Origin: Desulfonatronum sp.
Lineage (GTDB): Bacteria > Desulfobacterota > Desulfovibrionia > Desulfovibrionales > Desulfonatronaceae
Length of the DNA stretch: 14,233 nt
Direction: 5' to 3'
NCBI GenBank assembly: GCA_007127655.1
Contig: SKYX01000201.1
Span: 1 to 14,233, forward strand
Made by a program: the position numbers and the translations under genes. Position 1 is the first letter of the stretch. Each line of letters begins with the position of its first letter. Positions 1 through 14,233 of this stretch are shown one piece after another. The notes under the pieces were generated by a model that had not been told where the DNA came from, ran no database searches, and saw nothing but the letters and a program-made list of their open reading frames with translations.

Positions 1-1032
1 GTGTTGGATGATGTCCCGGTATCCGCTGTAGTCCGCGGCAATGGTCGGCAGCCCGGCCAGCCCGGCCTCCAGGAGGGTTAGGCCGAAGGTTTCCTGGGGG
101 TTGTCGGCCAGGGAAAGGAAAATGTCCGCCGCGGCGTAGAGCCGGTGCTTGCGGGCCTCGTCCGGGCTGGGGACGAGGCGGCAGGGCAGGCCCACGTTGC
201 GGGCCAGGGCCGTGAAGGTGCCGGGAAAGTCGTCCTTGGGCTCGACCCAGCCGGCCACCACCAGGAGCACGTTCCCCAGGGCATGGGAGCGTCCGCGACC
301 TGATATCCGTTGCCAGGCTCGGAGCAAGGGCAAAAGGTCCATTTTGGAATGGGGGGTGATCCGGCCCAGGACGAGTAGCACCTTGGTCTCGGATTCCACG
401 CCCAGCTCGGCCCGGCCCTGTTCGCGCAACGCGGCAGGGTCAGTCATGGGATCGTCCATGCCCAGAGGGATCACCGCTGTCCCGGGCTGGGGGAAGCGCT
501 CTTGATCCAGGCTGTAGCTCACGCGGAGATGGTCGAAATAGGCCAGCACCGCGTTTTGTCCGGCCGTGGAAGTGGCCACGACGCAGTCCCTGGGAGTGCA
601 GCCCGGGTGGAGGTGGTCCAGGAAACGGGCCGGGTAGCCGGGGTAGCTCAGGGAGTGGGTGACGCTGGTGATCGGGAATTGCCGTGCGGCGCAGGCGTTG
701 CGCAGCCTGGCCAGAGCGGGCGGATGGTTGATGCAGTCCGAAAGATGGAAGCAGTGATAGGCGGTGGATCGCAGGGACGAGGGCAGGTCCTGGCGCAAAA
801 AAAAGCGAAGTCGCTTATCCGCGAAAAAACGGGGAAAGCGCTGCTGAAAGAGCTGCCGAGTGGAGTGGAGCTCCCTGGGGGTAGCCAGGAAAAAATGATA
901 TTCGGCAAAGGGGTCATGGTGCAGCAAGGCGGCCAGAAACTGCTCGTTGGCCACCTTGCGGCCCCAGACCGCTCCGGATTCCAGGAATGGGTCCAGTGTG
1001 GCCCAGATGCGAGAGAGATACGTTGACGGCAT
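1..1032 (-). CDS. GT4-family glycosyltransferase, 3' part missing
   Basis: Retaining glycosyltransferase of the GT-B fold, probably moving a sugar from a nucleotide sugar to a glycan or lipid acceptor in the cytoplasm. Acceptor and donor cannot be read from the sequence. The frame is open for 344 residues and leaves the window at base 1, so the C-terminus is missing. The second Rossmann domain is clear: VLLVLGRITPHSKMD (218-232), then LYAAADIFLSLADNPQETFG (298-317). This contains the GT4 E-x7-E pair E314 and E322, which contacts the donor nucleotide sugar in this family, followed by AGLPTIAADYSGYRD. The ATG at 1032 lies 30 bp after the stop of the acyl-CoA synthetase, with no good ribosome site. 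A TTG at 1053, seven codons upstream in frame, is an alternative, and an in-frame stop at 1063-1065 bars anything longer. Probably co-transcribed with the synthetase. A run of eight T sits in codons near residues 77-79. Confidence 0.85.
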   Translation of the reverse strand, partial: MPSTYLSRIWATLDPFLESGAVWGRKVANEQFLAALLHHDPFAEYHFFLATPRELHSTRQLFQQRFPRFFADKRLRFFLRQDLPSSLRSTAYHCFHLSDCINHPPALARLRNACAARQFPITSVTHSLSYPGYPARFLDHLHPGCTPRDCVVATSTAGQNAVLAYFDHLRVSYSLDQERFPQPGTAVIPLGMDDPMTDPAALREQGRAELGVESETKVLLVLGRITPHSKMDLLPLLRAWQRISGRGRSHALGNVLLVVAGWVEPKDDFPGTFTALARNVGLPCRLVPSPDEARKHRLYAAADIFLSLADNPQETFGLTLLEAGLAGLPTIAADYSGYRDIIQH

Positions 1033-1062
1033 GTCGATGGGGATGCCCGGCAAAGCCTCGGG

Positions 1063-2736
1063 TCAGGATGCTCCCCCGGCCGCGCTAAGATCATTGGCGC
1101 GGATTTCGGCGCGTTTGATCTTGCCGCTGATGGTCTTGGGCAACTCGTCCACGTAGTCGATGATTCGGGGATACTTGTAGGGCGCGGTGAGGGACTTGAC
1201 GTGGTTCTGGAGTTCCTTGGTCAGTTCCTCGGAGCCGGTGCAGCCCGGCGCCAGAACCACGGTGGCTTTGACCGTCTGCCCGCGATCCGGGTCCGGAACC
1301 CCGGTCACCGCGGCTTCCACCACCGCGGGGTGGGTGATCAGGACGCTTTCCACTTCAAAGGGGCCGATCCGGTAGCCCGAGCTTTTGATCAGGTCATCCA
1401 CCCGGCCCAGGAACCACAGGTAGCCTTCCTCATCCATCCAGGCCTTGTCCCCGGTATGATAAAACCCGCCCTTGCGCGCCTGGGCCGTCTTGTCCGGTTC
1501 GTCCAGATATCCGGCGAAGAGGCCCAGCGGAGCAGCGGGGTCCAGGCGGATGCAGATCTCGCCCTCCTCGCCCGGGGCGCAGGGCTGGTCGTCGTCGTTG
1601 AGCAGGACAACGTCCCAGCCCGGACAGGGTTTGCCGATGGAGCCGGGTTTGGGGGTCATGAACGGAAAGGTGGCCACCTGCAGGGTGGTTTCGGTCTGGC
1701 CGTAGCCCTCGTAAATGGGCAGCCCAGTGGCTTCCTTCCAGGCGTGGAAAACCCCTTCGTTGAGTAGCTCTCCGGCCGTTGTGCAGTGGCGCAGGCTGGA
1801 GAGGTCCAGGCCGGAGAGGTCCTGGCGGATCAGAAATCGGTAGACCGTGGGCGGCCCGCAGAACGAGGTCACTTTATGCTCGGCCAGCAGCCCGAGCAGT
1901 TTGGCCGGGTCGAACTTGCCTCGGAAGTCGTGGACAAAGACCATGGCGCCCGCCATCCATTGGCCGTAGAATTTGCCCCAGACCGCCTTGCCCCAGCCGG
2001 TGTCGGCCAGGGTCAGGTGAATGTCCCCGGGACGCAGGTTGTGCCAATGTACGCCGGTGACGAAGTGCCCCAGGGGGTAGGTGTGCTGGTGCTCGACCAT
2101 TTTGGGCGGTCCAGTGGTGCCGGAGGAAAAGAAGATCAGCAGGCTGTCCCGGCCTCCGGCGTTTTCAGCCGGATCCTCGGGCCGGGGAAAAACTTCGGAT
2201 GCCTGGGCCATGATCGCGGCGTAGTCGGCCCAACCTGGCTTTAGGGCACTCCCGCCGACCTGGATCAGGGTGCGCAGGCCGGGGCACTTCGGCAGGGCGG
2301 CCTGAACCGCGGGCGCGACCCCGGCGTCCGTGATCACGGCCTTGATCCGGGCGAAGTTGACCCGGTAAACGATATCCTTGGTGGTCAGCAGGGCCGGGGA
2401 GGGCACGGCCACCGCGCCCAGCTTGTGCAGGGCCAGCATGGCTACCCAGAATTCCACCCGGCGGTGCAGGATGAGCATCACCCGGTCGCCCTTCTTCAGG
2501 CCGAGTATTTTGAGGGCGTTGGCCAGTTTACTGGATTCGGTCCGGAAAAAGCCCAGGGAGAAGTCCTGGCGGTTCCCGGCGTCGTCCACATGGATCATGG
2601 CCGGACGGTCCGGCTCCCGCTCGGCGTGGACGTCCAGAAAGTCGAAGGCGAAATTGTAGTTGCCCGGTATCTCCAGCCGGAAGTTGGTCAGGAAATCTTC
2701 GTGGGAATGGTAGGTCGGGTGCATGATTGTCCGCAT
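1063..2736 (-). CDS. AMP-forming acyl-CoA synthetase (MACS/benzoate-CoA ligase type)
   Basis: ANL-superfamily ligase that activates a carboxylic acid as acyl-AMP and transfers it to CoA in the cytoplasm. The full-length 557-residue form fits the medium-chain or aromatic acyl-CoA synthetase group. Substrate is not determined. Visible motifs: the ATP-binding P-loop SSGTTGPPK (204-212), the adenylate motif EGYGQTET (343-350), the hinge region GRVDDLIKSSGYRIGP (444-459), and the C-terminal PKTISGK (533-539) with the expected catalytic lysine K539. All core residues are present, so the enzyme should be active. The start could be ATG 2736, only 7 bp after the regulator's stop, or ATG 2724, four codons later, which has a weak GGA upstream. 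Neither ribosome site is strong and coupling to the upstream gene is likely. The adjacent XRE-cupin protein is the obvious candidate regulator. This gene pairing recurs in Desulfovibrio-type genomes, from memory. Confidence 0.92.
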   Translation of the reverse strand: MRTIMHPTYHSHEDFLTNFRLEIPGNYNFAFDFLDVHAEREPDRPAMIHVDDAGNRQDFSLGFFRTESSKLANALKILGLKKGDRVMLILHRRVEFWVAMLALHKLGAVAVPSPALLTTKDIVYRVNFARIKAVITDAGVAPAVQAALPKCPGLRTLIQVGGSALKPGWADYAAIMAQASEVFPRPEDPAENAGGRDSLLIFFSSGTTGPPKMVEHQHTYPLGHFVTGVHWHNLRPGDIHLTLADTGWGKAVWGKFYGQWMAGAMVFVHDFRGKFDPAKLLGLLAEHKVTSFCGPPTVYRFLIRQDLSGLDLSSLRHCTTAGELLNEGVFHAWKEATGLPIYEGYGQTETTLQVATFPFMTPKPGSIGKPCPGWDVVLLNDDDQPCAPGEEGEICIRLDPAAPLGLFAGYLDEPDKTAQARKGGFYHTGDKAWMDEEGYLWFLGRVDDLIKSSGYRIGPFEVESVLITHPAVVEAAVTGVPDPDRGQTVKATVVLAPGCTGSEELTKELQNHVKSLTAPYKYPRIIDYVDELPKTISGKIKRAEIRANDLSAAGGAS

Positions 2737-2743
2737 TGATTGT

Positions 2744-2754
2744 TTAAGTGATGA
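2744..2754. repeat. 11-bp direct repeat, copy near the acyl-CoA synthetase start
   Basis: The plus-strand word TTAAGTGATGA occurs here, overlapping the last codons and stop of the regulator and ending 8-18 bases before the ligase ATG at 2736. The same 11 bases recur at 3344-3354 upstream of the regulator. Placement before both genes suggests an operator, but nothing in the sequence proves it. Confidence 0.4.
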
Positions 2755-3313
2755 CGTCCAGAAAAGTGGCCTCAGCCTGGTCCAGGCCCCGCAGGGCGTG
2801 AGGCGTTCGGGAAGTGAAGTAGAGGCTGTCGCCGGGTTCGAGGATCAGGATCTGGTCTCCCAGGCGCAGCTCCAGGCGACCGGAGAGCATGTAGATGAAT
2901 TCCTGTCCGGCATGTTCGGTGAAGGTCGGTTCCTGTTCGCTTTTCGGGGGCACGGTGACCAGAAACGGCTCCATCCGGCGGCCGGTGAAGCTGTAGGCCA
3001 GGTTTTTGTAGGCGTAGTCCTTGCGGCGGTCCACGTTCATGCCCTTGCCCTTGCGGACCAGGGCGTGGTTGTGCAGGTGGGCCTCGCCGCCGGAGAGCAG
3101 CACGGTCAGGTCCACGCCGCAGCTTTTGGCGGTGTGAAAAAGGTGGCTGACCGGGATTTCCACGGTTCCGGATTCGTACAGGGCCACCTTGTCCGGGGTG
3201 GATTCGATCCGGGCGGCCATTTCCTCGACGCTGAGGTCCAGGGCCTCGCGCAGACCGCGCAGCCGTGGTGCGATCTGGGCGTAGGGCGGGGTTTCGGGGG
3301 AAATGTCAGGCAT
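2744..3313 (-). CDS. XRE-family transcriptional regulator with cupin domain
   Basis: A 189-residue cytoplasmic DNA-binding regulator. Residues 14-72 form an XRE/Cro-like helix-turn-helix, with SVEEMAARIESTPDKVALYE covering the two helices. Residues 117-187 form a cupin_2 beta-barrel, with EHAGQEFIYMLSGRLEL and LEPGDSLYFTSRTPHAL as the two cupin motifs. In this architecture the cupin binds a small effector and modulates DNA binding by the HTH. The effector here is unknown; because the next gene is an acyl-CoA ligase, a carboxylate or its CoA ester is a reasonable guess. The ATG at 3313 has AGGA eight bases upstream. The gene lies 7 bp ahead of the ligase and 241 bp after pdxA, so it probably opens its own transcription unit. 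An 11-bp direct repeat lies just upstream of it and again upstream of the ligase (2744-2754 and 3344-3354). Confidence 0.92.
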   Translation of the reverse strand: MPDISPETPPYAQIAPRLRGLREALDLSVEEMAARIESTPDKVALYESGTVEIPVSHLFHTAKSCGVDLTVLLSGGEAHLHNHALVRKGKGMNVDRRKDYAYKNLAYSFTGRRMEPFLVTVPPKSEQEPTFTEHAGQEFIYMLSGRLELRLGDQILILEPGDSLYFTSRTPHALRGLDQAEATFLDVIT

Positions 3314-3343
3314 GATGATCGTCCTGGGATGAGGTTTCGTTAC

Positions 3344-3354
3344 TTAAGTGATGA
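3344..3354. promoter_or_regulatory. Possible XRE-cupin operator (11-bp repeat with ACTTAAGT palindrome)
   Basis: Second copy of TTAAGTGATGA, about 30-40 bases upstream of the regulator's start codon. Here it overlaps an 8-bp perfect palindrome ACTTAAGT (3342-3349), the sort of small symmetric site that XRE dimers bind. Autoregulation is inferred, not shown. Confidence 0.3.
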
Positions 3355-3411
3355 AAAAGTGTTTGTCGACAGGCCGTTCAAGAATCCCAAGTGCAAGGAG
3401 CAAGGAAAGAC

Positions 3412-3439
3412 GTAGGGTCGACCGGCCGGTCGCTCCTAC
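3412..3439. repeat. 28-bp imperfect palindrome, REP-like element copy 1
   Basis: Two 14-bp arms centred on CCGGCCGG, opening with GTAGG and closing with CCTAC, with two mismatched positions between the arms. It shares length and outer sequence with the palindrome at 9542-9569. It sits in the 241-bp gap between pdxA and the XRE-cupin gene. The remainder of that gap holds a TTGACA without a partner and a hairpin at 3486-3516. It is probably a dispersed extragenic repeat that can form a hairpin in RNA. There is no T-run after it on either strand, so it is not an obvious terminator. Confidence 0.65.
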
Positions 3440-3554
3440 CGTGCCGACAGATAGCGTTAATGTGTCAACCAATTGTGAACCATCCCTCTCAAAGCGTATG
3501 CGTTGATACATGAGAGTTTGAACTTTTTGCGGCGACGCGGCAATTGGGTGTTTT

Positions 3555-4604
3555 TCAACGGACTGTCAGGGCGACGGCCATGTTGAGAGCGTTACCCAGA
3601 CTTTGGGCCGATGCCTTGCCTTGGCCGACCAGGTCGTATCCGGTGCCGTGGTCCGGGCTGGTGCGGACGTAGGGCAGGCCGAGGGTGACTTGGACGCCGT
3701 CGTGAAAGTGCAGCAGCTTGAAGGCCGTCAGGCCCTGGTCGTGGTACATGGCCAAAACCGCGGAGAAGTCGCCTTGCGCGGCCCGGTGGAAAACCGTGTC
3801 CGCGGCCAGCGGGCCGACTACGTTCCAGCCCCTGGCCCTGGCCTGGCTCACGGCCGGGGCGATGATCCGTCCGTCCTCGTCTCCGATCCGTCCATCCTCC
3901 CCGGCATGCGGGTTCAGGCCGCAAACCGCGACGGGGTCGCACAGGCTTTGGGCGTGCATCGCGGCCATGGTCAGCTCCAACTTGCGCAGGATCCGTTCAA
4001 CGGTGATCAAGTCGGGGACCGCACGCAGCGGGGGGTGGGTGGTGACCAGGCTGACCCGCATCCGAGGCCCCGCAAAGTGCATGCAGACGTCGTCCGGGGT
4101 CAACCCGGCCTTGGCGGCCAGAAACTCGGTGTGCCCGGCGAAATCGAATCCTGCCCGCTGGAGCGTGGCCTTGTTCAGCGGGCAGGTGGTCACTGTCTGG
4201 ACGTGGCCGGATTGCAACAGGGAGCACGCTGTTTCCAGGGCCAGCCCCGCGGCCAGGCCGCCCTCTACCGTTACAGTCCCCGGCCGCATTGGAAAAGCTT
4301 CGAGTTCCGGAGGCGTGTAGAGATGGACGCTTGGCGGATGATCCTTTAGCCGTTCCGGATCGGACAGCCGATGCCAGAAGAGCGGGCCGCCTGAGGCCTG
4401 CTGGTGGTGCGCCAGGGCCTGTTCCGGACCGATGATCAATACGGAGGTTCCGGCAAGGGACTTGGGGAGGCCGTGCCGGAAAACGCGACAAACCAGTTCC
4501 GGGCCCAGCCCGTTGGGGTCGCCCAGGGTCAGGCCCAGGGTCAGGCCCAGTGTCAGATCCAGGGTCAGGCCCAAGGGTTGGCCCAGGACGGAGGGGTGGG
4601 GCAC
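3555..4604 (-). CDS. pdxA: 4-hydroxythreonine-4-phosphate dehydrogenase PdxA
   Basis: NAD-dependent enzyme of the DXP-dependent vitamin B6 pathway. It oxidises 4-phosphohydroxy-L-threonine, whose decarboxylated product is joined to 1-deoxyxylulose 5-phosphate by PdxJ. The 349 residues contain the family hallmarks TLGDPNGLGPE (25-35), GHTEFL (157-162), TTHPPL (188-193), NPHAGE (231-236), MYHDQG (286-291) and TSPDHGTGYD (315-324). H190, H233 and H288 match the metal-binding histidines of E. coli PdxA. A PdxA2-type phospho-threonate dehydrogenase is a less likely alternative. The start is GTG at 4604, 3 bp after the SAP-gene stop, and translation is probably coupled. A TTG further in is possible. 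The N-terminus is odd: homologues reach the LGDP motif within about ten residues, whereas here LTLG-type tetrapeptides are repeated before it because of a 12-bp tandem DNA repeat. Confidence 0.93.
   Translation of the reverse strand: MPHPSVLGQPLGLTLDLTLGLTLGLTLGDPNGLGPELVCRVFRHGLPKSLAGTSVLIIGPEQALAHHQQASGGPLFWHRLSDPERLKDHPPSVHLYTPPELEAFPMRPGTVTVEGGLAAGLALETACSLLQSGHVQTVTTCPLNKATLQRAGFDFAGHTEFLAAKAGLTPDDVCMHFAGPRMRVSLVTTHPPLRAVPDLITVERILRKLELTMAAMHAQSLCDPVAVCGLNPHAGEDGRIGDEDGRIIAPAVSQARARGWNVVGPLAADTVFHRAAQGDFSAVLAMYHDQGLTAFKLLHFHDGVQVTLGLPYVRTSPDHGTGYDLVGQGKASAQSLGNALNMAVALTVR
4521..4580. repeat. 12-bp tandem repeat in the 5' end of pdxA, about five units
   Basis: Units of 12 bases start at 4521, 4533, 4545, 4557 and 4569. 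On the plus strand the first two are identical (GCCCAGGGTCAG), the third and fourth differ at one and two bases, and the fifth is more degenerate. Each unit encodes Leu-Thr-Leu-Gly or a close variant on the minus strand. Twelve bases equal four codons, so gain or loss of a unit keeps the pdxA frame. Confidence 0.9.
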
Positions 4605-4607
4605 GGC

Positions 4608-4817
4608 TTAACCGTTGTTTTGCTTCGGAGCCAGGGAAAGGCAATCCACTCGGAAGATGCAGCCCTCCTGGTCGCAATAACCGGCTTCGGCCCGGGCGAA
4701 GCAGTCGAAGTTGCCTTCGTCCAGTTGGATTATTCGGACGGCTTGAATTTTCGTGGTGCCGACACCAAGTTTCAACCCGCGTGATTTGGCCATGGTTCGG
4801 ATTTCCGTCATTTTCAT
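4608..4817 (-). CDS. Small SAP-domain protein with four-cysteine tail
   Basis: A 69-residue protein. The N-terminal half, MTEIRTMAKSRGLKLG followed by a basic helix ending QLDEGN, resembles the SAP / Rho-N helix-extension-helix that binds nucleic acid. The C-terminal half carries C39, C48, C53 and C59 (spacing C-x8-C-x4-C-x5-C), which could bind zinc or another metal. Small proteins of this layout occur in Desulfovibrio-type genomes, from memory; their function is not known to me. The ATG at 4817 has GAGG seven bases upstream and is preferred over an upstream in-frame ATG at 4928, which would overlap the end of glgA and add unrelated residues. The gene lies 49 bp after glgA and 3 bp before pdxA, which suggests co-transcription. 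A role in nucleic-acid binding is inferred only. Confidence 0.8.
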   Translation of the reverse strand: MKMTEIRTMAKSRGLKLGVGTTKIQAVRIIQLDEGNFDCFARAEAGYCDQEGCIFRVDCLSLAPKQNNG

Positions 4818-4866
4818 GGGAGAACCTCGTTTTTGAGGGGTGAAGGGCGGGTGTCCAAAACGGCGA

Positions 4867-6333
4867 TCAGGCCGGGGACAGGTCCGCTCCAATGTCCGTA
4901 TAGGCTTGTATATACTGTTGCGCCGCACTGGACCAGGAGTAGTCCTTGCGCATGGCCCTGGTCCGCATGGCCTTCCATTCCGCCGGACGTTTCCAGACGT
5001 CCAGGGCCAACTCGATGCTTTGCAGAAAAGTCCGGGCGTCGGGCGGGGTGAAAATGAAGCCCGTGGATTCGGGGTCGGGGTAGCCAGTGATGGTGTCCAG
5101 GAGTCCGCCCAGGGCAGAGGCCACGGGCAGGCTGCCGTAGCGCAGGCTGTACATCTGGGTCAGGCCGCAGGGTTCGTAGCGTGAGGGCATCAGGAAAAGA
5201 TCGACTCCGGCCTGAATGCGGTGGGCCAAATCTTCGGTGTAGCCGATGCGGGCCACGAGGCGTCCCGGGTAGGTTTCCATCATGTCCTGGACTTGGGCCT
5301 CAAACTGGAGATTGCCTTCACCCAGGACGACCACGCTGACATCCTTGCGCATCAGTTCAGGCAAAATGTCCAGGAGCATGTCGATGCCTTTTTGCTCCCG
5401 GAGGCGGCCGACGAATCCGAGCAGAGGGCGGGACAGGAGCTCGGGGTCCAGGCAGAGTTCGTGAAACAGACTTTCCTTGCAGCGGAGTTTGCCCCGTGGT
5501 GTCTCCGGCGAATATGTGGTGGGCAGGTAGCGGTCTTGCCTGGGGTCCCAGACGGCGTAGTCCGCGCCGTTGAGAATTCCCCGCAAGTCCGCGGCCCGGT
5601 GGTTGAGAATGCCTTCCAGGCCGCAGCCGAATTCCGGGGTCAGGATTTCCTTGGCATAGGTCGGGCTAACCGTGGTGACCAGGTCCGCGTAGGAGATGCC
5701 GGACTTGAGCAGATTGAAGTCTCCGAAGAATTCCGCCCCGGAGCTGTTCCAGGCCGCCGAGGGCAGCCCGGATTCCAGGAACAGGCGGTAGGCGAACCGG
5801 CCCTGAAAGGCCAGATTGTGGATGGTCACCACAGACTTGGTCGTTTTCCAGAAGGTGTCCACCTTGCGCAAAAAATGCAGATAGGCCGGAACCAGGGCCG
5901 CGTGCCAGTCGTGGGCATGGATGATCTCCGGGGGGTTGGACAACCGTCTGGCCCATTCCATGGTCGCCCGGCAGAAAAAGATGAACCGTTCGCAGTTGTC
6001 GAAATAATCGCCCTTGTGGGTGCAGTACAGAAAGCGGCGATCAAAGTATTCGCCCCGGGAGATGAAGTAGACGGGCAGACCGTGATAATCGGCCAGAAAA
6101 ATGTCCGCGGTGGTGTCCGGCCAGGGGTAGCCCACCGGGCAGTCTTCGTAGATCAGGCGTAAGGGAAATTCGCTACTGGCCAGCCGCCCGTAGAACGGAG
6201 TGATCACGCCCACGCTTACCCCGAGCCGGGACAAGGCCAGGGGCAGGGCGCCCATGACGTCCGCGAGCCCCCCGGTTTTGGAAAACGGGTACATTTCCGA
6301 GGCCACGAACAGGACCTGAGGATGGCTGTCCAT
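4867..6333 (-). CDS. glgA: Glycogen synthase GlgA (GT5)
   Basis: Transfers glucose from ADP-glucose (some bacterial enzymes use UDP-glucose) to the non-reducing end of an alpha-1,4-glucan, building glycogen in the cytoplasm. The 488 residues match the usual bacterial length. Visible motifs: SKTGGLADV (18-26), the KTGGL ADP-glucose loop; [11 protein letters not shown] (139-149); TIHNLAFQG (170-178); GILNGADY (252-259), which closes the N-terminal domain; [13 protein letters not shown] (304-316); and [18 protein letters not shown] (383-400) with the conserved glutamate E387. The ATG at 6333 has AAGGA about seven bases upstream. It lies 36 bp after the Nudix gene and 49 bp before the SAP gene, so it probably sits inside an operon. 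No other glycogen gene (glgC, glgB, glgP) is in the window. Confidence 0.96.
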
Positions 6334-6369
6334 GCTGATTCCTTTAGGTTTTGCGTCGATGGAGCGAAC

Positions 6370-6846
6370 TCACGAGACGGACTTCAGAGGGTTCAGGGCT
6401 TCGTGACGGCGACGCAGCTCCTGGAGGATGCTTCCGTGGTCAAAGGCCAGTTGGTCGGGCAGGGCGGTCAGGGGAAAAACGCGCACGGCCCCGGCGTCGT
6501 CTCCGGCCCGGAGTTGGTCCGGATTCTTGGCCTGGGCCGTGAAGATCGTGCTGATGGTGTGCTGGCGCGGGTCGCGGTCCGGGGCGGAATAGACGCCGAA
6601 CAGCCCGGTCAGCTCCACTTCCAGCCCGGTTTCCTCCAGGGCCTCGCGCACCGCGGCCTGTTCCGCGGACTCACCGTAATCGATGAACCCGCCGGGAATG
6701 GCCCAGCCCGGAGGCGGGTTGCGACGTTCGATGAGGACGATTCCCTGGCCGGGAATGGTGATCAGAATGTCCACGGTGGGCACCGGGTTGGTATAGATGG
6801 TCAGCGGTTTGGCGCAGTGGGGGCAGGGTTTTTGGAGTCCTGGCAT
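6370..6846 (-). CDS. Nudix hydrolase
   Basis: Hydrolyses a nucleoside diphosphate linked to another group, with Mg2+ or Mn2+. A complete Nudix box G-x5-E-x7-R-E-U-x-E-E-x-G-U spans residues 53-75 (G53, E59, R67, E68, E71, E72, G74), so the enzyme should be active. The 158 residues fit the small ADP-ribose pyrophosphatase or 8-oxo-dGTPase-like groups, and the substrate cannot be told. The N-terminus has one CPHC pair (8-11). Related proteins often carry a four-cysteine zinc ribbon here; only half of it is present. It stands immediately before glgA with a 36-bp gap, which makes a nucleotide-sugar substrate such as ADP-glucose an attractive but unproven idea. ATG 6846 lacks a strong ribosome site. 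It follows a terminator-like hairpin, so it may begin its own transcription unit, although no clear promoter was seen. Confidence 0.92.
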
Positions 6847-6908
6847 GGTTGGGATGCTTTCTTTGGGGGCCTACAGCCGGGGCAGAGGATGAAGTGGGGC
6901 GGTTGATT

Positions 6909-6929
6909 GAAAAACTGTTCCTGAACAGG
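6909..6929 (-). terminator. Weak Rho-independent terminator after the racemase gene
   Basis: On the minus strand, CTGTTCAGGAACAG folds into a 5-bp stem (CTGTT/AACAG) with a CAGG loop and is followed by five T. It begins about 12 bases after the racemase stop at 6941. The stem is short and poor in GC, so readthrough into the Nudix-glgA genes is possible. Confidence 0.45.
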
Positions 6930-6940
6930 ATGATGGCATA

Positions 6941-7687
6941 CTAGTCGGAGCCTTGGCAAAGGGCAACAGGTAGGCTTGCATTGGGCGAAAGTTCGGACTG
7001 CTCAACCCGGGCCTCGACATCAAAGAAATCGAAATCCGTTTCCTCCCGTTCCCTTCGTGTTCTCCGGCGGACCGTGATGAATTGGCCGGTGGGTTGACGG
7101 ACCCGGTCTTGGCCGGTGAACAGGCTGAAGGCCACGCTTCCTGATCCGCAGGCTGTTTCCGGGACAAAGGAGTCCACGGCCGCGACGTAAACGTACGGCG
7201 TGATGGCATTGCCGGAGAAATGGATCGCGCCGAAGGCCGGGAGGTCGAAGCGGTTGCACAGATCGGCCAGTTCGCGTTTGGTTCGGGCGTGGTCCATGGG
7301 GCTGCTCGAGGCATGTCCGTCCGGTTTTGGGGTGAGAATGAAGCCGATGCCTTCCAGGAGGACGATGTTTTCGGACATGGAGCAGCGCAGGGGGATGGTC
7401 GCACGGGTGGCGTGGGGCATGTTGACGAAGTCCGCCGGACGATCCAGGCCGCTGACTCGGACGGTTCCTTTCGGCCCCAGAGTGGAGGCGAAAGCCAGGG
7501 TGGCGTTGATGCAGAATTCTCCGCCCATCATCTCCAGGCGCGGCGGACGGGCCTGTTCGTCCACGAAGCCGACCTGCTCCACGTCGCAAAGCAGGTCCGC
7601 GGCCAGGGACGCCCGAAGGGAGGTCGGGCAGTCCCGGACCAGGGCGGTGGCGTTGCCCCCGGCGATGAGAAATTTGCGGGTCGTCAT
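6941..7687 (-). CDS. DapF-fold amino-acid racemase, CntK-like
   Basis: A 248-residue member of the diaminopimelate-epimerase fold, which uses two cysteines as acid/base pair to invert a C-alpha. The second cysteine is in TACGSGSVAF (C180). The first is in MMGGEFCINATLAF (C59), not in the MCGNG motif of true DapF. From memory, staphylococcal CntK (histidine racemase of staphylopine synthesis) has the same arrangement: EQVGFIE, MSGNEFCGNAT and SCGSG. Here the matching pieces are EQVGFVD (37-43), GGEFCINAT and ACGSG, plus VRVSG. Both cysteines are present, so racemase activity is plausible, but the substrate is unknown. No cntL or cntM homologue is in the window. The gene starts 14 bp after pcnB with no good ribosome site, so translation may be coupled, and it is followed by a hairpin. 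An annotation as dapF would probably be wrong. Confidence 0.75.
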   Translation of the reverse strand: MTTRKFLIAGGNATALVRDCPTSLRASLAADLLCDVEQVGFVDEQARPPRLEMMGGEFCINATLAFASTLGPKGTVRVSGLDRPADFVNMPHATRATIPLRCSMSENIVLLEGIGFILTPKPDGHASSSPMDHARTKRELADLCNRFDLPAFGAIHFSGNAITPYVYVAAVDSFVPETACGSGSVAFSLFTGQDRVRQPTGQFITVRRRTRREREETDFDFFDVEARVEQSELSPNASLPVALCQGSD

Positions 7688-7701
7688 GGAGAACGGGCGC
7701 G

Positions 7702-9123
7702 TCAGGTACGGGGCGCGGACGACGGCTTGCGGCGGCGGGATCGCTTGCGCGGTGGGCGGGAACGCCTGATCTCGATGTCCTGACCCTCTGTTTCGGTTGC
7801 CGGTTCGTCCGGCATTGCCGTTGTGTCGTTTGGTTTTTCGGCGCCTGCATTAACCTGACGACGTTTCAACTTTCCGGGTTTTTTATCAGCGGTCTTTTTT
7901 GTACTTACGGAGCCCGGGCGTTGCGCTTCGATTTCCAGGCGCAGGGCGTTCCAGGGTTCGAGGCGCTCTGGATTCTCGCCGGCCACGCGCAGACCGATTT
8001 CATGCAAGGCCAGGGCCTCGGGGAAGGTCTCCTGAGCCACGAAGCCGCGTTTGGAGAAGCGCTTGCGCTTGTCCGGGACGAATCGGGACTGGTTGGCCAT
8101 GACCTGGATCATCCGCATGGTCATCAACTTGGGCATGCTGATCCGGATGCAGATGGGCGTGAGCAGTTCGGTCAGCCGGAGGTGGAGCGGGAGCCGTTCT
8201 TGCTCCTCGTCCCGGGCCGCTTGTTCACTGAGCAGCCGGTTTGTGGGGGCGAAAAACAAGGTCGCGAAAATTAAGACCGGATTCAGGCCGCCCTTGTCTC
8301 TGATCCGCTCGTCCAGGCGACCCAGCCAGGACCACAGGACGGATTCCCGGTTTTGTGCGTGGTCCTGGTCCAGATACTGGGCGATTTCCGGGAGCAGATC
8401 TCCGAGCAGGCCGGTTTTGTAGAGCAGGCGAACGGCTTGTTCCCCGGAGCCGTAGGCAAAAAGCTTGATCAGTTCTTCGAAAACCCGGGGCGGGGCGGCT
8501 TTGAGAATTTCCTGGTGATGGCGGAGAATGGCGTTGAAGGTGGCCGGTTCGATCCGAAACCCCAGGCGGGAGGCGAAGCGCACGGCCCGGATCATGCGCA
8601 CCGGGTCCTCCCGGAAGCGGATGTTCGGGTCCCCGATGCAGCGGATCAATCGGTCGCGGATATCGCTCAACCCACCGACGTGGTCGATGACGGAAAACCG
8701 CTTCACCTCGTAGAACAGGGCGTTGATGGTGAAGTCCCGGCGCAGGGCGTCCTCTTCCGGGGAGCCGTAGCAATTGTCCCGAAAGACGTACAAATCTCCG
8801 TTCTCGTCGGCATCCGGCTCGGGGCAGCGTCGAAAGGTGGAGGTTTCGATGATCTGGTCGCCGAAATGGATATGCGCCAGTCGGAACCGGCGGCCGATAA
8901 TGAAACAGTTTCGGAAGGCCTTCTTGATCTGATTGGGCGTGGCGTTGGTGCCCACGTCGAAATCCTTGGGCTCGCGCCCGAGGATCAGGTCGCGCACGCC
9001 GCCGCCCACCAGGTAGGCGGTGAACCCCTTGCGCCCGAGTTGGTACATGACCTTCAAGGCGTCGGGATGAATGTTCTTGCGGGAGATGGGGTGTTCGTCG
9101 CGGGGAATGATTTGTGGGGGCAT
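7702..9123 (-). CDS. pcnB: Polynucleotide adenylyltransferase (poly(A) polymerase I) PcnB
   Basis: Adds 3' poly(A) tails to RNA from ATP, which in bacteria marks transcripts for decay. The class II nucleotidyltransferase head has GGGVRDLILG (40-49), KDFDVGT (53-59) with the catalytic D-x-D (D54, D56), RLAHIHFG (81-88), and RRDFTINALFY (128-138), followed by DPVRMIRAVRFASRLGF. The leader ISRKNIHPDALKVMYQLGRKG is typical of PcnB rather than tRNA CCA-adding enzymes; the two are close, so some doubt remains. The 473 residues end in a long Lys/Arg-rich, low-complexity tail from about 405, consistent with the basic RNA-binding tail of PcnB. ATG 9123 was chosen because it opens the conserved N-terminus. 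An upstream in-frame ATG at 9252 would run through the dual-CXXC gene in another frame. The ribosome site is weak, and it lies 28 bp after that gene. Confidence 0.93.
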   Translation of the reverse strand: MPPQIIPRDEHPISRKNIHPDALKVMYQLGRKGFTAYLVGGGVRDLILGREPKDFDVGTNATPNQIKKAFRNCFIIGRRFRLAHIHFGDQIIETSTFRRCPEPDADENGDLYVFRDNCYGSPEEDALRRDFTINALFYEVKRFSVIDHVGGLSDIRDRLIRCIGDPNIRFREDPVRMIRAVRFASRLGFRIEPATFNAILRHHQEILKAAPPRVFEELIKLFAYGSGEQAVRLLYKTGLLGDLLPEIAQYLDQDHAQNRESVLWSWLGRLDERIRDKGGLNPVLIFATLFFAPTNRLLSEQAARDEEQERLPLHLRLTELLTPICIRISMPKLMTMRMIQVMANQSRFVPDKRKRFSKRGFVAQETFPEALALHEIGLRVAGENPERLEPWNALRLEIEAQRPGSVSTKKTADKKPGKLKRRQVNAGAEKPNDTTAMPDEPATETEGQDIEIRRSRPPRKRSRRRKPSSAPRT

Positions 9124-9151
9124 GCGGGTGGGAAAACGTAAAAACGTAGTG

Positions 9152-9352
9152 CTATATGCGGTTACAGGGAATGTCGGCCAAAAATTCTTCCACCAGGTCG
9201 TCCAGAGTGGTTCCGTACTCGTGCAAGGCAAAGGCGGCGCCGCAGGACCCACAGCGCAGGGCGACGGCCCGTCAGCCGCGCCGGGCGTGCAAGCGATCGT
9301 TGCACTTTCGGCAACGAAGTCGGGTTCTGATATCTGGGATGGGCGAGGGCAT
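9152..9352 (-). CDS. Small dual-CXXC protein, candidate selenoprotein (Sec27 by in-frame TGA)
   Basis: An ATG at 9352 with AAGGA five bases upstream opens a frame that meets TGA at codon 27 (9272-9274) and continues in the same frame to TAG at 9152-9154. Read through, the product has 66 residues. The first CXXC, CRKC (14-17), lies before the TGA and the second, CGSC (34-37), after it, then an acidic helical end DDLVEEFLADIPC (51-63). Coding character is kept on both sides. A hairpin with a GGUCC loop follows the TGA at the spacing expected for a bacterial SECIS. From memory, a family of dual-CXXC small proteins with selenoprotein members exists in Desulfovibrio relatives. The alternative is a nonsense mutation (CGA Arg to TGA) in a cysteine-type gene. 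Function is unknown; CXXC pairs suggest zinc binding or redox work. It precedes pcnB by 28 bp. Confidence 0.65.
9237..9257 (-). promoter_or_regulatory. SECIS-like hairpin downstream of in-frame TGA
   Basis: On the minus strand, GCGCTGTG (9257-9250) pairs with TGCGGCGC (9244-9237): five Watson-Crick and three G-U pairs around the loop GGTCC (9249-9245). The loop starts 23 bases after the TGA, inside the 16-37 base range described for bacterial SECIS elements. It opens with G, as required, and resembles the GGUCU loop of E. coli fdhF. The fold was made by hand and competing folds in this GC-rich stretch were not scored. Confidence 0.5.
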
Positions 9353-9395
9353 GGGAATCCTTGCGTGTCACGGAAAACATTCGGTCACGAGCGCG

Positions 9396-9423
9396 ACCAT
9401 ACAGCGAGACCGCGGAAAGTCAA
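9396..9423 (-). promoter_or_regulatory. Sigma-70-type promoter candidate for the dual-CXXC/pcnB operon
   Basis: The minus strand reads TTGACT (9423-9418), a 16-base spacer, then TATGGT (9401-9396), matching the -35 at five of six and the -10 at four of six consensus bases. Transcription would begin near 9389, giving a leader of about 37 bases before the ATG at 9352. Confidence 0.5.
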
Positions 9424-9541
9424 TTCCGGGGCTTTGGTTTTTCAATATGGAGTTGTTCTCACGGCTGGTGGGATGGTTCATTCTGAGGGAAATACAGGTT
9501 TGCACTTTCCGGGTTCCCGACATTCATTCCGGTGCCGTGGT

Positions 9542-9569
9542 GTAGGGGCGGTTCGTGAACCGCCCCTAC
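9542..9569. repeat. 28-bp palindrome, REP-like element copy 2
   Basis: Perfect 13-bp arms GTAGGGGCGGTTC and GAACCGCCCCTAC separated by two bases. Length, outer bases (GTAGG and CCTAC) and symmetry match the element at 3412-3439, so both belong to one dispersed family. The stem is stable but no T-run follows it on either strand. It lies in the gap after the kinase cluster and could block 3' exonucleases or act as a weak bidirectional terminator. Confidence 0.75.
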
Positions 9570-9719
9570 GGAAGGCCGTGCATCCGCATGGGGTTGCTCA
9601 TGGTGCCTGTCGGGCGTCAAATGCCAACCTGTTCTGAATCATCCCCGGCTGGTTTAACTGTTTTGGCTGGCCTCGGAACCCTATCGCCGACTTCGGAACA
9701 TCAAGCCGTTGCGCGTCCG

Positions 9720-11783
9720 TCAATTGTGCGCAGGCAGGGTAAAGTAAAAAATCGTCCCTTGGCCGACCTCGCTTTCCACGCGAATTTCGCCGCCGTGCTT
9801 TTCGATGAATTCCTTGCACAGGATCAGGCCCAGGCCGGTACCGTGTTCGCCTTGGGTGCCGGGGCGGATTGTTTTTCGGTCAAGGGCAAAGAGATGCGCC
9901 TGGGTTTTCTGATCCATTCCGATGCCGGTGTCTCGCACGGCCACCTCGACCTTGTCTCCATTTTGCGATCCGGAGATGGTTACGGATCCTTCGTTGCCTG
10001 AATATTTGAGGGCATTGGAAACAAGGTTGCGGACAACGGTGGTGATCATGGGCTGGTCGGCCATGAGTTCCAGGTTCCCTGAAGTGCTATTCTGGATGGT
10101 GACCCGTTTCAATTCGGCCACGGAGCGCAAGGACTCGATGCTGTTGTGGACCAGTTCGTGAAGGTTGAGCGGTTGCGGAGAGAAGCCGATCAGCCCTTGC
10201 TGGACAAGAGCCCAGTGCAGCAGGTTTTCCAGCAGGGCGTACAAGCGCTCGGTGCTTTTGCACATCGCCGTGGACATTTCCCGCAGCTCCTGAATGGCCA
10301 TGTTTTCCGCGTCTTCGGCGAAAACTTTCGCCAAGCTCAACAGGCCGGACATTGGTGATTTGAGGTCGTGGGCGATGATGGAGAAAAATTTGTCCTTTTC
10401 CGCCAAAAGGGCTTGGAGTTCGTCGTTGTATCGGCGGACTTCATCCTCAAGGAGCTTGCGTTCCGTGATGTCTGTTGCCATCTCCATGCGCACGAAGCGG
10501 CCGTCAATCCAGGGGATGGCGCTGTCCTGGCACAAGTACCAGCGCTGGTTCATCGTGTTCTTGAACGACCATTCGTACGTTCCGGTGGGTTTGCCGTCCT
10601 TGAGCAGTTTATCGTTGGTGCAAAAGGCGCAAGGCCCGTCCTGTCCCTGCTGCAAGACCTCCCAGCATGTTTTTCCGGCAGAGTCACCGACCAGTTGCCG
10701 ACCATAGGCGTTGATGAACAGAATCTCGTACGTGTCCATATCCACGATGTAGATCAGCGCCTCGATGCCGTCCAAGACGGTGATCAGCCTTTGGTGGGAA
10801 AGGTGGAGTTCCTGCTCGGCCAGGCAGCGTTCCGTGACGTCCAGAAGAAAACCATCAAAGATGACCCCGCCGTCGTTCCCGTGTTTCATCCTGGTGTTCA
10901 TGGACGCCCAAAAGGTCGTTCCGTCCTGGCGAACCAGTTCCGCCTCGAAATTTTTGACCTCTCCGTCGGCCAGGAGTTTCTTCTTGTAGATTTTTCGATC
11001 CTCAGGCCGGGCGTAGAGTTGCGTGGCGATGTTCGTGACCGTCTCGATCATTTCTTTTGCGGTTGGGTACCCGCACAGGCGGGCCATTTCCGTATTGACC
11101 GTATGGTACCGTCCTTCCGGGGTCGACTGAAAAATACCCATGGGCGCGTTTTCAACCAGCTCGCGATACTTTTCCTCGCTTTTTTTCAGCGCCTCATCGG
11201 ATCGGACCTGATCCGTGATGTCCGAGACCATGAGCAGAAGCTTCTGGTCCGCATCTTTTTTATCGTCTTGGGGGAGCACCTTTACCAGCATGTCCCGCCT
11301 CCCGACGCAGCGCGCATGCACCGTTTCGTCGTTCTTGCCAAACAGCCTGAAATCCAGCAGCTTTCCCTCCGGATTCTTGAAAAAGGCCTTGAAACGTCCC
11401 AGCAAGGAGGAACGGTCCTCGGGAACGACCAGCTCGGTCAACGGTCTGTTCGCAAACCCATGGCCCTCTCTGCCGATCATCCGGGCGAAGGTCTGGTTGG
11501 CTTTTGTGATCAGTCCCTGGGAATTGACGACCAGGTATCCGGCCGGTGCATTGTTGAACAACTCCGCATATTGGTTTTTGACCTGTTCCAACTGGTGTTG
11601 AGTCGCTCGCAGTTCCTCGTTTTGCAGCTCCAGTTCGATCTGATGGACCTGGTATTCGTGAATCAGGTTCCTCAGGTCGTCGGATGAGAGATTTTCCACG
11701 GACCGGGGAGCCTCGGCCACGCGTGCTTCGGCCTGTTCCCGGAGTTGCTGTTTCTTCAGAACAAGATCGTCGGTCGTGCTCAT
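9720..11783 (-). CDS. Soluble sensor histidine kinase with three PAS domains
   Basis: A 687-residue kinase without membrane segments or signal peptide. An N-terminal coiled coil (about 40-75) leads to PAS1 (about 72-190), PAS2 (about 202-320) and PAS3 (about 330-442), each ending in the D-[IV]-T motif typical of PAC regions. The HisKA segment is FFSIIAHDLKSPMSG (466-480), with H472 as phospho-acceptor. The ATPase domain has the N-box NLVSNALKYS (586-595), the G1 box VRDTGIGMD (616-624) and the G2 box HGTGLGL (647-653). PAS3 carries C373, C385, C388 and C418 around PCAFCTN, a cysteine set that suggests a metal, Fe-S or thiol sensor. The ATG at 11783 has GGAG five bases upstream and overlaps the stop of the preceding kinase as ATGA, so the two are translationally coupled. 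There is no attached receiver or DNA-binding output. Confidence 0.93.
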   Translation of the reverse strand: MSTTDDLVLKKQQLREQAEARVAEAPRSVENLSSDDLRNLIHEYQVHQIELELQNEELRATQHQLEQVKNQYAELFNNAPAGYLVVNSQGLITKANQTFARMIGREGHGFANRPLTELVVPEDRSSLLGRFKAFFKNPEGKLLDFRLFGKNDETVHARCVGRRDMLVKVLPQDDKKDADQKLLLMVSDITDQVRSDEALKKSEEKYRELVENAPMGIFQSTPEGRYHTVNTEMARLCGYPTAKEMIETVTNIATQLYARPEDRKIYKKKLLADGEVKNFEAELVRQDGTTFWASMNTRMKHGNDGGVIFDGFLLDVTERCLAEQELHLSHQRLITVLDGIEALIYIVDMDTYEILFINAYGRQLVGDSAGKTCWEVLQQGQDGPCAFCTNDKLLKDGKPTGTYEWSFKNTMNQRWYLCQDSAIPWIDGRFVRMEMATDITERKLLEDEVRRYNDELQALLAEKDKFFSIIAHDLKSPMSGLLSLAKVFAEDAENMAIQELREMSTAMCKSTERLYALLENLLHWALVQQGLIGFSPQPLNLHELVHNSIESLRSVAELKRVTIQNSTSGNLELMADQPMITTVVRNLVSNALKYSGNEGSVTISGSQNGDKVEVAVRDTGIGMDQKTQAHLFALDRKTIRPGTQGEHGTGLGLILCKEFIEKHGGEIRVESEVGQGTIFYFTLPAHN

Positions 11784-13687
11784 GGTTTCTCCGAAACGGG
11801 GTCGATTGGGTTTTGATCGGGCGAAGTGAATGTCAGGACGGCATATACCGTCGTGCCTTCGCCAACGGTGCTGTCCACGCTGATGTATCCGCCCATGGAG
11901 TCGACGAGCCGTTTGACAATGGCCAATCCCAGGCCCGCACCCTGATATTTTCTGGTGTACGATCCATCCACCTGGGTGAAAGGCTTGAAGAGCATAGCGA
12001 GTTTGTCCTCCGGGATGCCGATGCCGGTGTCCGTGACGCAAAACAGAATTCGAGGTCCGTTTTGTTCACCATTTGCGGATTTCAGGGGCCAGACCTTCAG
12101 CCCGATCCGCCCCTGGTCCGTGAACTTCAGGGCGTTGCCCACCAGGTTGAACAGAATCTGCCGCAGCCGCGTGGGGTCTCCGATGAGACGTTCCGGCAGG
12201 GCGGGGTCGATGTGGTATTCCATCGCCACATCGTTCTTTCTGACGGTCGTCGGAAAAAGGTCAAAAACAGCGGCCACGGAGTCATGGACGCTGAATTCTT
12301 CCAGGCGGTTCTCCGTGCCCCCGTTTTCAAGTCCTGAAATGTCCAGAAGGTCGCTTAAAAGGCGGGTGTATCGATCCGAAGCCTGCAGGGCCATGGAAAT
12401 GTACTGGTGTTGTTCCTTATCCAATTTTGAGGTCCGCAAGAGTTGCAGCATGCCCATGATCCCGTTGAACGGCGTGCGCAGTTCATGGCTCATGTTGGCC
12501 AGGAATTCGGACTTGGCCCGGTTGGCCGCTTCGGCCTGGTCCTTGGCCTGAATAAGAGCTTGTTCGGCCTGCGTTCGTTCGGTGATGTTCTGGTTGACGA
12601 CAATGGCTGCGGCGACCTGGCCCTGGTCGTTCAATACCGGAGCCGTGAAGTTGAGGATTATCTTCTTTTTGCCTTCGAAGGTCTCGATTTCCAGAAGCTC
12701 GTCCACGATTGTCACGCCCTTGTTCACCGTGTGGGCCAAAGCCCAGTCGTTTTCGGCGATAGCTTCTCCGGATGGGAGCCGCTTGGCTTTGAAGACGTCG
12801 TATTGCTTCTGCTCCACCAAGGGCTCGGCATCCCAGATGGCTACTCCCGCCGGATTGCCTTGCAGCAGTTTGCCCTTGTCGTCGGCGATCCAGAGCCCAA
12901 CTGGCAGGATTTCAAAGACCTTGCTCAACAATCGTTCCCGCTCTCGCAACCCCCGTTCCGAATTGCCCAGCAGCCTGTTTCCGGTCCAGATGCCCAGCAA
13001 CCCCAAAAAGCCGATGACGGCATGCCCCAGAGCGAGCAGCATCCGTTGCTGTCCGGCCACCGCGAGAAAGGGCGCAAGCGGCAGGGAAACGCTGATCCCG
13101 CCATGGATATCGCCAATTTTGTAGCCCTGATCGACATGGCAGCGCAAGCATCCGGCTTCGGTGAACAAGGGACGCATGAACCGGAAGTACGGGCGTCCGT
13201 CGATGGTTTCCACGGATGACGCCTTGGGCGCGCCGTCTCGAAAGGCCAGCATGGCCTTGGTCTCCCATTCGTCCGCGGCGTTTTCCGGGCGTAGCGGATC
13301 AAGGCTGGTAATGTGGCCGAGCAACCCGTATTCGTCGAAGCCCAGCTCATGAACCTGACGCGTCATGTACGCGGGGTTGACCAGGGTCAGTTTCATTCCG
13401 GCGGAGGTCGTCACGTCCCGGTCGGGCAGATGTGCAAGGTACGGATTGGGCGGGCTGGTCTCCGTCGGCGGGACATAGACCCCACCATGTAGGGTGGACC
13501 ATTTGCGGTAGATGACGTCCTTTTGAAACGAGGCCTGGCCCTCGGATTCCGCCAGAACCAGCACGGAATCACCCGCCTGGCGCCAGTTCCAGGCCAGGGA
13601 GACGGCAACCGCGACGATCCAGACCACCGCGACCATGAGCGTCAAGTTTCTTCTTGACGGGGTGAGGAGGGAACCTTTGCTGTTCAT
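11780..13687 (-). CDS. Membrane sensor histidine kinase with DUF3365-like CxxCH domain
   Basis: A 635-residue inner-membrane kinase. TM1 (about 15-34) and TM2 (about 215-240) enclose a periplasmic region of about 180 residues resembling DUF3365 (Tll0287-like). This contains the c-type heme motif CLRCH (180-184) near its end, followed by a GGISVSLPL strand. A PAS-like domain (about 252-372, ending NQNITERTQAEQ) leads to HisKA SEFLANMSHELRTPFNGIMG (393-412) with H401, then the ATPase domain with NLVGNALKFTD, VTDTGIGIPED and GAGLGLAIVKR boxes. It should autophosphorylate in response to a periplasmic redox state or heme ligand, which is inferred from the motif. ATG 13687 has AAGG seven bases upstream and excludes a longer non-hydrophobic extension. 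It lies 38 bp after a broken response-regulator gene and overlaps the next kinase by 4 bp, so all three were probably one operon. Confidence 0.93.
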   Translation of the reverse strand: MNSKGSLLTPSRRNLTLMVAVVWIVAVAVSLAWNWRQAGDSVLVLAESEGQASFQKDVIYRKWSTLHGGVYVPPTETSPPNPYLAHLPDRDVTTSAGMKLTLVNPAYMTRQVHELGFDEYGLLGHITSLDPLRPENAADEWETKAMLAFRDGAPKASSVETIDGRPYFRFMRPLFTEAGCLRCHVDQGYKIGDIHGGISVSLPLAPFLAVAGQQRMLLALGHAVIGFLGLLGIWTGNRLLGNSERGLRERERLLSKVFEILPVGLWIADDKGKLLQGNPAGVAIWDAEPLVEQKQYDVFKAKRLPSGEAIAENDWALAHTVNKGVTIVDELLEIETFEGKKKIILNFTAPVLNDQGQVAAAIVVNQNITERTQAEQALIQAKDQAEAANRAKSEFLANMSHELRTPFNGIMGMLQLLRTSKLDKEQHQYISMALQASDRYTRLLSDLLDISGLENGGTENRLEEFSVHDSVAAVFDLFPTTVRKNDVAMEYHIDPALPERLIGDPTRLRQILFNLVGNALKFTDQGRIGLKVWPLKSANGEQNGPRILFCVTDTGIGIPEDKLAMLFKPFTQVDGSYTRKYQGAGLGLAIVKRLVDSMGGYISVDSTVGEGTTVYAVLTFTSPDQNPIDPVSEKP

Positions 13688-13725
13688 TGTAGACCTTTGG
13701 GCATCACATGCCGACGTTGTGGTTA

Positions 13726-13935
13726 TCACTTCTTTGAGTCGGGGCCGCTTTGCCCGGCGACAACGGTGCGGTTGCATCCGGCATTTTTGGCTTGGTACAG
13801 AGCTTCGTCGGTCCGTCTCGGCCGGAAAAAGGCTTTGACCCTGGACAGGGTCGTCTTCAGCAGCATCACAATTGCCTGATCATCGTCGATGATCAGGATG
13901 GTTTGGTTTTGTTCGGATTTTGCGTTGAGGTGCAT
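13726..13935 (-). pseudogene. Remnant of a receiver-GGDEF response regulator (internal deletion)
   Basis: A 69-residue frame that joins two ends of a larger protein. Residues 11-32 (QTILIIDDDQAIVMLLKTTL) are the first strand and helix of a receiver domain, with the acidic D17-D19. Residues about 36-60 (FFRPRRTDEALYQAKNAGCN and onward) match the last helix of GGDEF diguanylate cyclases, usually written ADEALYRAKNAGRNR. The phospho-acceptor aspartate, the rest of the receiver and the GGDEF active site are all missing, so neither phosphotransfer nor c-di-GMP synthesis is possible. The join falls next to a 16-bp inverted repeat at 13837-13852. The frame is still open, with ATG 13935 and GGAA about 12 bases upstream, so a short peptide may still be made. 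It lies 38 bp ahead of the two kinases and was probably their original output partner. Confidence 0.7.
13837..13852. repeat. 16-bp inverted repeat at the receiver/GGDEF junction
   Basis: Arms GACCCTG and CAGGGTC, perfect over 7 bp, are separated by two bases. The repeat covers codons 29-34 of the remnant, exactly where receiver similarity stops and GGDEF similarity begins. It could be a hairpin that promoted deletion, or a coincidence. Confidence 0.6.
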
Positions 13936-13982
13936 GGCGTATGTTTTTCCGGGGGGGCATGCAGTTCCAGCACTTCAAGTGA

Positions 13983-14207
13983 TCAGGATTTCGTGTCGCC
14001 GGGCTCATCTTCAAAATCCATCTGGCCCATGCCCGGCTCCTTGACCAGGGCTTCCAGGTAAGCTGCTATAATTTGACGAAAATCGTCGGCTTGGAATCGA
14101 TGGAACTCGCGTACCACCTCCCGACTTCTTTGTTCAGACTCTTCACTTCGCCAGGAATGCTTCCCATCGTGCGAGACATGGTCAGGGATATTTGAACAGC
14201 ATATGGT
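13983..14207 (-). other. Unassigned open frame without a convincing start
   Basis: The minus strand is open from just after a TGA at 14208-14210 to a TGA at 13983-13985, with a hydrophilic, acidic end such as DDFRQIIAAYLEALVKEPG. There is no ATG before the last 20 codons. A GTG at 14117 would give 44 residues but has its purine-rich stretch directly against the start. It could be the tail of a decayed gene or chance. The rest of 13936-14233 shows only a run of seven C on the minus strand (13951-13957) ahead of the response-regulator remnant. Confidence 0.25.
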
Positions 14208-14233
14208 TCATGAAAAGACCTCGGGAACGTGAA

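Follow-up and report, generated by a model that had tools for sequence, protein, structure and literature searches.

The window analysed here, the whole 14,233-nucleotide stretch of a Desulfonatronum sp. contig (SKYX01000201.1, positions 1 to 14,233), carries on its minus strand a small gene that standard translation cuts after codon 26 and that, by comparison with its relatives, is very probably a selenoprotein gene. The elements of the locus are the following:

9152..9352, minus strand: predicted small selenoprotein gene with two CXXC motifs, 66 codons, TGA codon 27 as selenocysteine (Sec) (from translation, family profile and relatives in the order)
9272..9274, minus strand: TGA codon 27, predicted Sec (from translation and a comparison of 81 genes)
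9358..9362, minus strand: ribosome site AAGGA, 5 nt before the ATG (from reading the sequence)
9237..9257, minus strand: predicted SECIS hairpin within the coding sequence (from folding and comparison with relatives)
7702..9123, minus strand: pcnB, poly(A) polymerase, the downstream neighbour (PF01743 and PF12627)

Translated with TGA as U, the minus strand of 9152-9352 gives 66 residues, from an ATG at 9352 to a TAG stop at 9154-9152, that comprise CRKC, U27, CGSC and an acidic C-terminal part; the stop is separated from the pcnB start by 28 nt. A preliminary description, made from the letters of the sequence, had reported, with no strand given, a frame with a ribosome site, these two motifs, a TGA at codon 27 and an acidic C-terminus, and every one of these elements was found on translation. 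Its hairpin of 8 pairs, with a GGUCC loop 23 nt past the TGA, is likewise there as described, at 9257-9237, and we take its loop to resemble the SECIS loop of E. coli fdhF. Among the 29 TGAs of the window that are preceded by at least 15 ATG-open codons and followed by at least 30 open codons, three have at least two CXXC motifs, and a hairpin as stable occurs only at the codon-27 TGA.

Against the NCBIfam profile NF041197 (CxxC_Se_CxxC, "dual CXXC motif small (seleno)protein"), whose cut-off is 40 bits, the read-through product reaches 74 bits over profile positions 1-53 of 53, and it has what defines that family, two CXXC motifs with Sec or Cys between them. Other searches were less productive: the product reached the cut-off of no family in a Pfam profile scan and found no match in a protein search, a scan of genome contigs confirmed no relative (a whole-genome profile search did recover relatives), and an Rfam scan of the window gave no match. 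On its profile match the gene is a member of an already catalogued family and not a new candidate. Hence the earlier proposal of a candidate selenoprotein stands as regards the selenocysteine but is weaker as regards novelty, since NF041197 exists and the family is in print.

Residue 27 and the hairpin among relatives

A search of the order with NF041197 matched 180 of 199 genomes, 174 of them above the cut-off, and none of 14 control genomes. At least 150 match places were listed for the order, of which 48 contain a single TGA and 102 contain none; the 81 genes that we compared are all 48 TGA places (47 besides the window gene) plus 33 of the 102, chosen to cover a spread of genera. At position 27, 48 of these genes encode Sec (TGA), 33 Cys and none another residue; since the presence of TGA guided the choice of the sets, the ratio of the two forms is not a frequency, and what is informative is that Cys stands in all 33 of the others. 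All 80 order relatives that were fetched have a matching frame with a TGA or a Cys codon, including one (L088) in which no start codon was found and which was aligned as a 58-residue piece. Beyond the order, 81 of 297 genomes of the phylum were matched, and in 20 loci picked from these position 27 is Sec in 13 and Cys in seven. In seven loci outside the order (L171-L174, L176, L179 and L180) the Cys form ends in IIYD or a close variant and not in DRI or DRL.

Within the genus, the gene occurs in six of eight genomes and has the TGA in all six, which makes a sequencing error unlikely. The preliminary description had named such an error, and Arg or varied residues at position 27, as observations that would speak against it; the TGA proved common to all six genus genes, and every one of the 81 order genes has Sec or Cys at the position. 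C14, C17, C/U27, C34, C37 and R65 are invariant across the aligned proteins of the order, and the residue two places before Sec or Cys is Arg in 77 of 81 and His or Lys in four. The 81 proteins offer too few columns for a firm tree; the best tree requires at least nine changes between Sec and Cys, of which two are forced by well-supported branches. Tests on independent pairs (for the loop G, the hairpin and the Pro contrast given below) had only two supported pairs and no power.

In the window, the 21-mer at 9257-9237 forms 9 pairs (8 in the preliminary count) at -11.6 kcal/mol, with z -2.34 against shuffles, but against synonymous recodings of its own gene z is only -1.25 (p 0.13). The whole 48-mer including the TGA folds otherwise (-19.9 kcal/mol, z 0.04), and this other structure, not the hairpin, is its minimum-energy fold. 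Taken by itself the window hairpin is therefore weak evidence, and the case rests on the comparison with relatives, in which the sequence after position 27 aligns gap-free.

Across the 48 Sec genes (45 distinct sequences), 88.3% of cells are paired in a 7-pair stem whose covariation score exceeds that of 500 of 500 shuffles. Both partners of pairs 20-36 and 21-35 change among the 45 sequences without a single break; the two pairs at the outer end of the stem are open in 24 and 13 of them. Of the five measures, two are less clear-cut: the number of pairs changed on both sides is matched by 40 of 500 shuffles and that of further pair types by 35 of 500. These shuffles leave relatedness in place, and the 33 Cys genes, a natural control, are flat under the same tests: 66.2% of cells pair, the same as in shuffles, with no excess of covariation. 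Synonymous recoding with local codon use separates the two forms in the same way. The Sec genes have a mean z of -2.24, with 46 of 48 below -1 and 32 of 48 at p <=0.05, whereas the corresponding values for the Cys genes are -0.27, 9 of 33 and 0 of 33. The hairpin folds at -7 kcal/mol or below in 46 of 48 Sec genes versus 7 of 33 Cys genes. Finally, at loop column 27, which falls on a third codon position, G stands in all 48 Sec genes and in 15 of the 33 Cys genes, a contrast that persists when one gene per genus and form is counted (11 of 11 versus 9 of 20, p 0.002). On this comparison of sequences, a hairpin downstream of the TGA is a conserved trait of the Sec forms and is not conserved in the Cys forms.

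The hairpin overlies the codons of the second CXXC. At the first X of this motif all 48 Sec genes encode R, G, K or T with a codon that ends in G (AGG 25, GGG 10, AAG 10, ACG 3). Pro occupies the site in 13 of 33 Cys genes and in 0 of 48 Sec genes (Fisher p 1.5e-6); when each genus contributes a single gene of each form, the contrast is non-significant (5 of 20 versus 0 of 11, p 0.13), and so the Pro point is suggestive only. With the second CXXC lying under the hairpin and Pro missing from it in the Sec genes, the alignment suggests that an RNA element may limit a protein motif in the Sec form.

Selenocysteine machinery and the reading of the TGA

The genome of the window has selB (368 bits), tRNA-Sec (82 bits) and selA (611 bits), all above cut-off. 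The preliminary description had proposed a check for selA, selB, selC and selD and regarded a genome without selB or selC as evidence against it; selB and tRNA-Sec are both present, and of the four only selD failed to reach its cut-off, as a partial 42-bit match in an assembly that is 84% complete. Because selD is above cut-off in 5/5 congeners and in 4/4 other genomes searched, we take it to be missing from this incomplete assembly. Among the 80 relatives, selA and selB are each above cut-off in 76. The Sec-form genomes with gaps are G042 (53% complete), which has neither gene, G080 (63%), which has no selA, and G063 (96%, in ~510 contigs), in which selB is missing; of the Cys-form genomes G189 and G069 are without both genes and the other 31 keep both. 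A separate observation concerns selD, which contains one in-frame TGA in 9/9 genomes (G003, G007, G010, G015, G020, G025, G035, G043 and G051; loci L191-L193 are among them), so that selenophosphate synthetase itself looks like a selenoprotein.

Two other readings of codon 27 have to be weighed. The TGA could be a genuine stop codon or a fault of the assembly, leaving a pseudogene or a 26-residue peptide, and the non-significance of the window hairpin taken alone (p 0.13) speaks for such a reading. But a TGA at this place in 6/6 genus genes and 48/81 order genes, with Cys opposite it in the rest, and a frame conserved past it up to the invariant Arg near the C-terminus are hard to reconcile with termination, and we regard this reading as very improbable. 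Still less probable is a TGA read as some other residue, through general reassignment or suppression: the genes without a TGA have Cys in 33 of 33 cases, the genome has selA, selB and tRNA-Sec, and the hairpin accompanies the TGA form only. The earlier claim that the TGA is decoded as selenocysteine is thus upheld by the Sec/Cys exchange, the conserved hairpin and the presence of selB and tRNA-Sec. From these comparisons we put the probability that codon 27 encodes Sec and that the gene belongs to the NF041197 family, taken jointly, at about 0.94.

The predicted protein, its neighbours and known systems

If codon 27 encodes Sec, SelB and tRNA-Sec, guided by the hairpin just past the UGA, would insert selenocysteine there, and the 66-residue product would be a Cys4 zinc ribbon held by C14, C17, C34 and C37. 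Sec27 would sit on the turn between two strands, preceded by a basic residue at -2, and the acidic C-terminal part would end near the invariant Arg. The selenol (a thiol in the Cys forms) would provide a redox-active or metal-reactive group for which the ribbon is the scaffold. The AlphaFold2 model is weak (mean pLDDT 66.4), with strands at 20-25 and 30-34, and its fold matches have low Z, 4.6 at most; many of the matching chains we take to be zinc ribbons. Together with this model, the invariant C14, C17, C/U27, C34, C37 and R65 point to a possible zinc ribbon whose hairpin turn carries the Sec. Most probably the protein is a small Cys4 ribbon with predicted zinc binding, and the low-confidence model suggests that Sec27 lies on a beta-turn between the strands, where the basic neighbour at -2 may favour the selenolate. 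For a redox role of Sec27 the chances appear about even.

Sec27 might instead be a metal ligand, for example in soft-metal trafficking or detoxification, and not a redox catalyst. The four further invariant Cys and the zinc-ribbon-like matches agree with this, but no metal gene recurs among the annotated neighbours (representatives only), and we consider it possible but the less likely role. A partnership with the PcnB poly(A) polymerase encoded alongside is improbable. The pcnB gene lies downstream on the same strand in 6/6 loci of family f1 and 17/18 of family f4 (23/24 together), with a gap of 3-106 nt in 21 of these 23 and of about 500 nt in two, but it is found in 0/57 loci of families f2, f3 and f5 within the fetched flanks. 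In f5 an SLT_2 transglycosylase cluster recurs in 21 loci (median offset 0.2 kb, one representative annotated), and the 20 phylum loci beyond the order share no widely recurring neighbour. Hence the link to pcnB noted in the preliminary description is real in f1 and f4 but limited to those lineages. The neighbour arrangements are local and point to no one partner. We consider it improbable that in the pcnB lineage the selenoprotein serves as a redox partner of the polymerase; were it to do so, the selenium or redox status of the cell would be coupled to RNA 3' tailing.

Two further features of the window lie on the other side of the small gene. At 9543-9568 there is a near-perfect palindrome, TAGGGGCGGTTCGTGAACCGCCCCTA, which occurs at 13 places of the genome, itself included, at <=3 mismatches (its reversed control at 0), and 9720-13777 of the minus strand holds two consecutive histidine kinase genes, one with PAS domains and the other with a Tll0287-like domain.

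In the literature the family appears under the name OS_HP3. A 2026 review (PMC13188914) gives it the motif RxU and credits it to a 2007 paper, and places under NF041197 also the hypothetical protein DW (GxU), as a separate entry. DW is reported in PMC12013277, which also describes OS_HP3 as the sole known selenoprotein missed by its program in its test genomes, and PMC9312934 lists OS_HP3 under the accession that the later PMC13188914 assigns to DW. A second type of small protein with two CXXC motifs (type B) was also encountered in our survey: among L151-L170, GxU or GxC replaces RxU in 17 of 20 loci (16 Sec, 1 Cys), and the two scanned type B loci with a TGA both score above the NF041197 cut-off. 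These type B loci are probably protein DW of PMC12013277.

The window protein can thus be set beside three known systems. The best PDB sequence matches of its profile are the YfgJ-type ribbons 2jne and 2jrp (E 0.00025 and 0.0013), although YfgJ is absent among the 50 fold matches listed. E. coli YfgJ (2jne; relative 2jrp) resembles the window protein in its second ribbon, C-x2-C-x9-C-x6-C, which has a Cys at the place of the Sec, and differs from it in being a double ribbon without Sec; the score is weak and any homology putative. The Cys in these ribbons nevertheless makes it possible that the Sec occupies an old thiol position. DW shares with the window protein its small size, the two CXXC motifs and a Sec between them, but the DW-like type B loci have GxU for RxU and no DRI-type C-terminus. 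With NF041197/OS_HP3, finally, the window protein shares both CXXC motifs, the RxU motif, the length and the Sec/Cys exchange, and it differs in nothing essential, the window gene being one that precedes pcnB.
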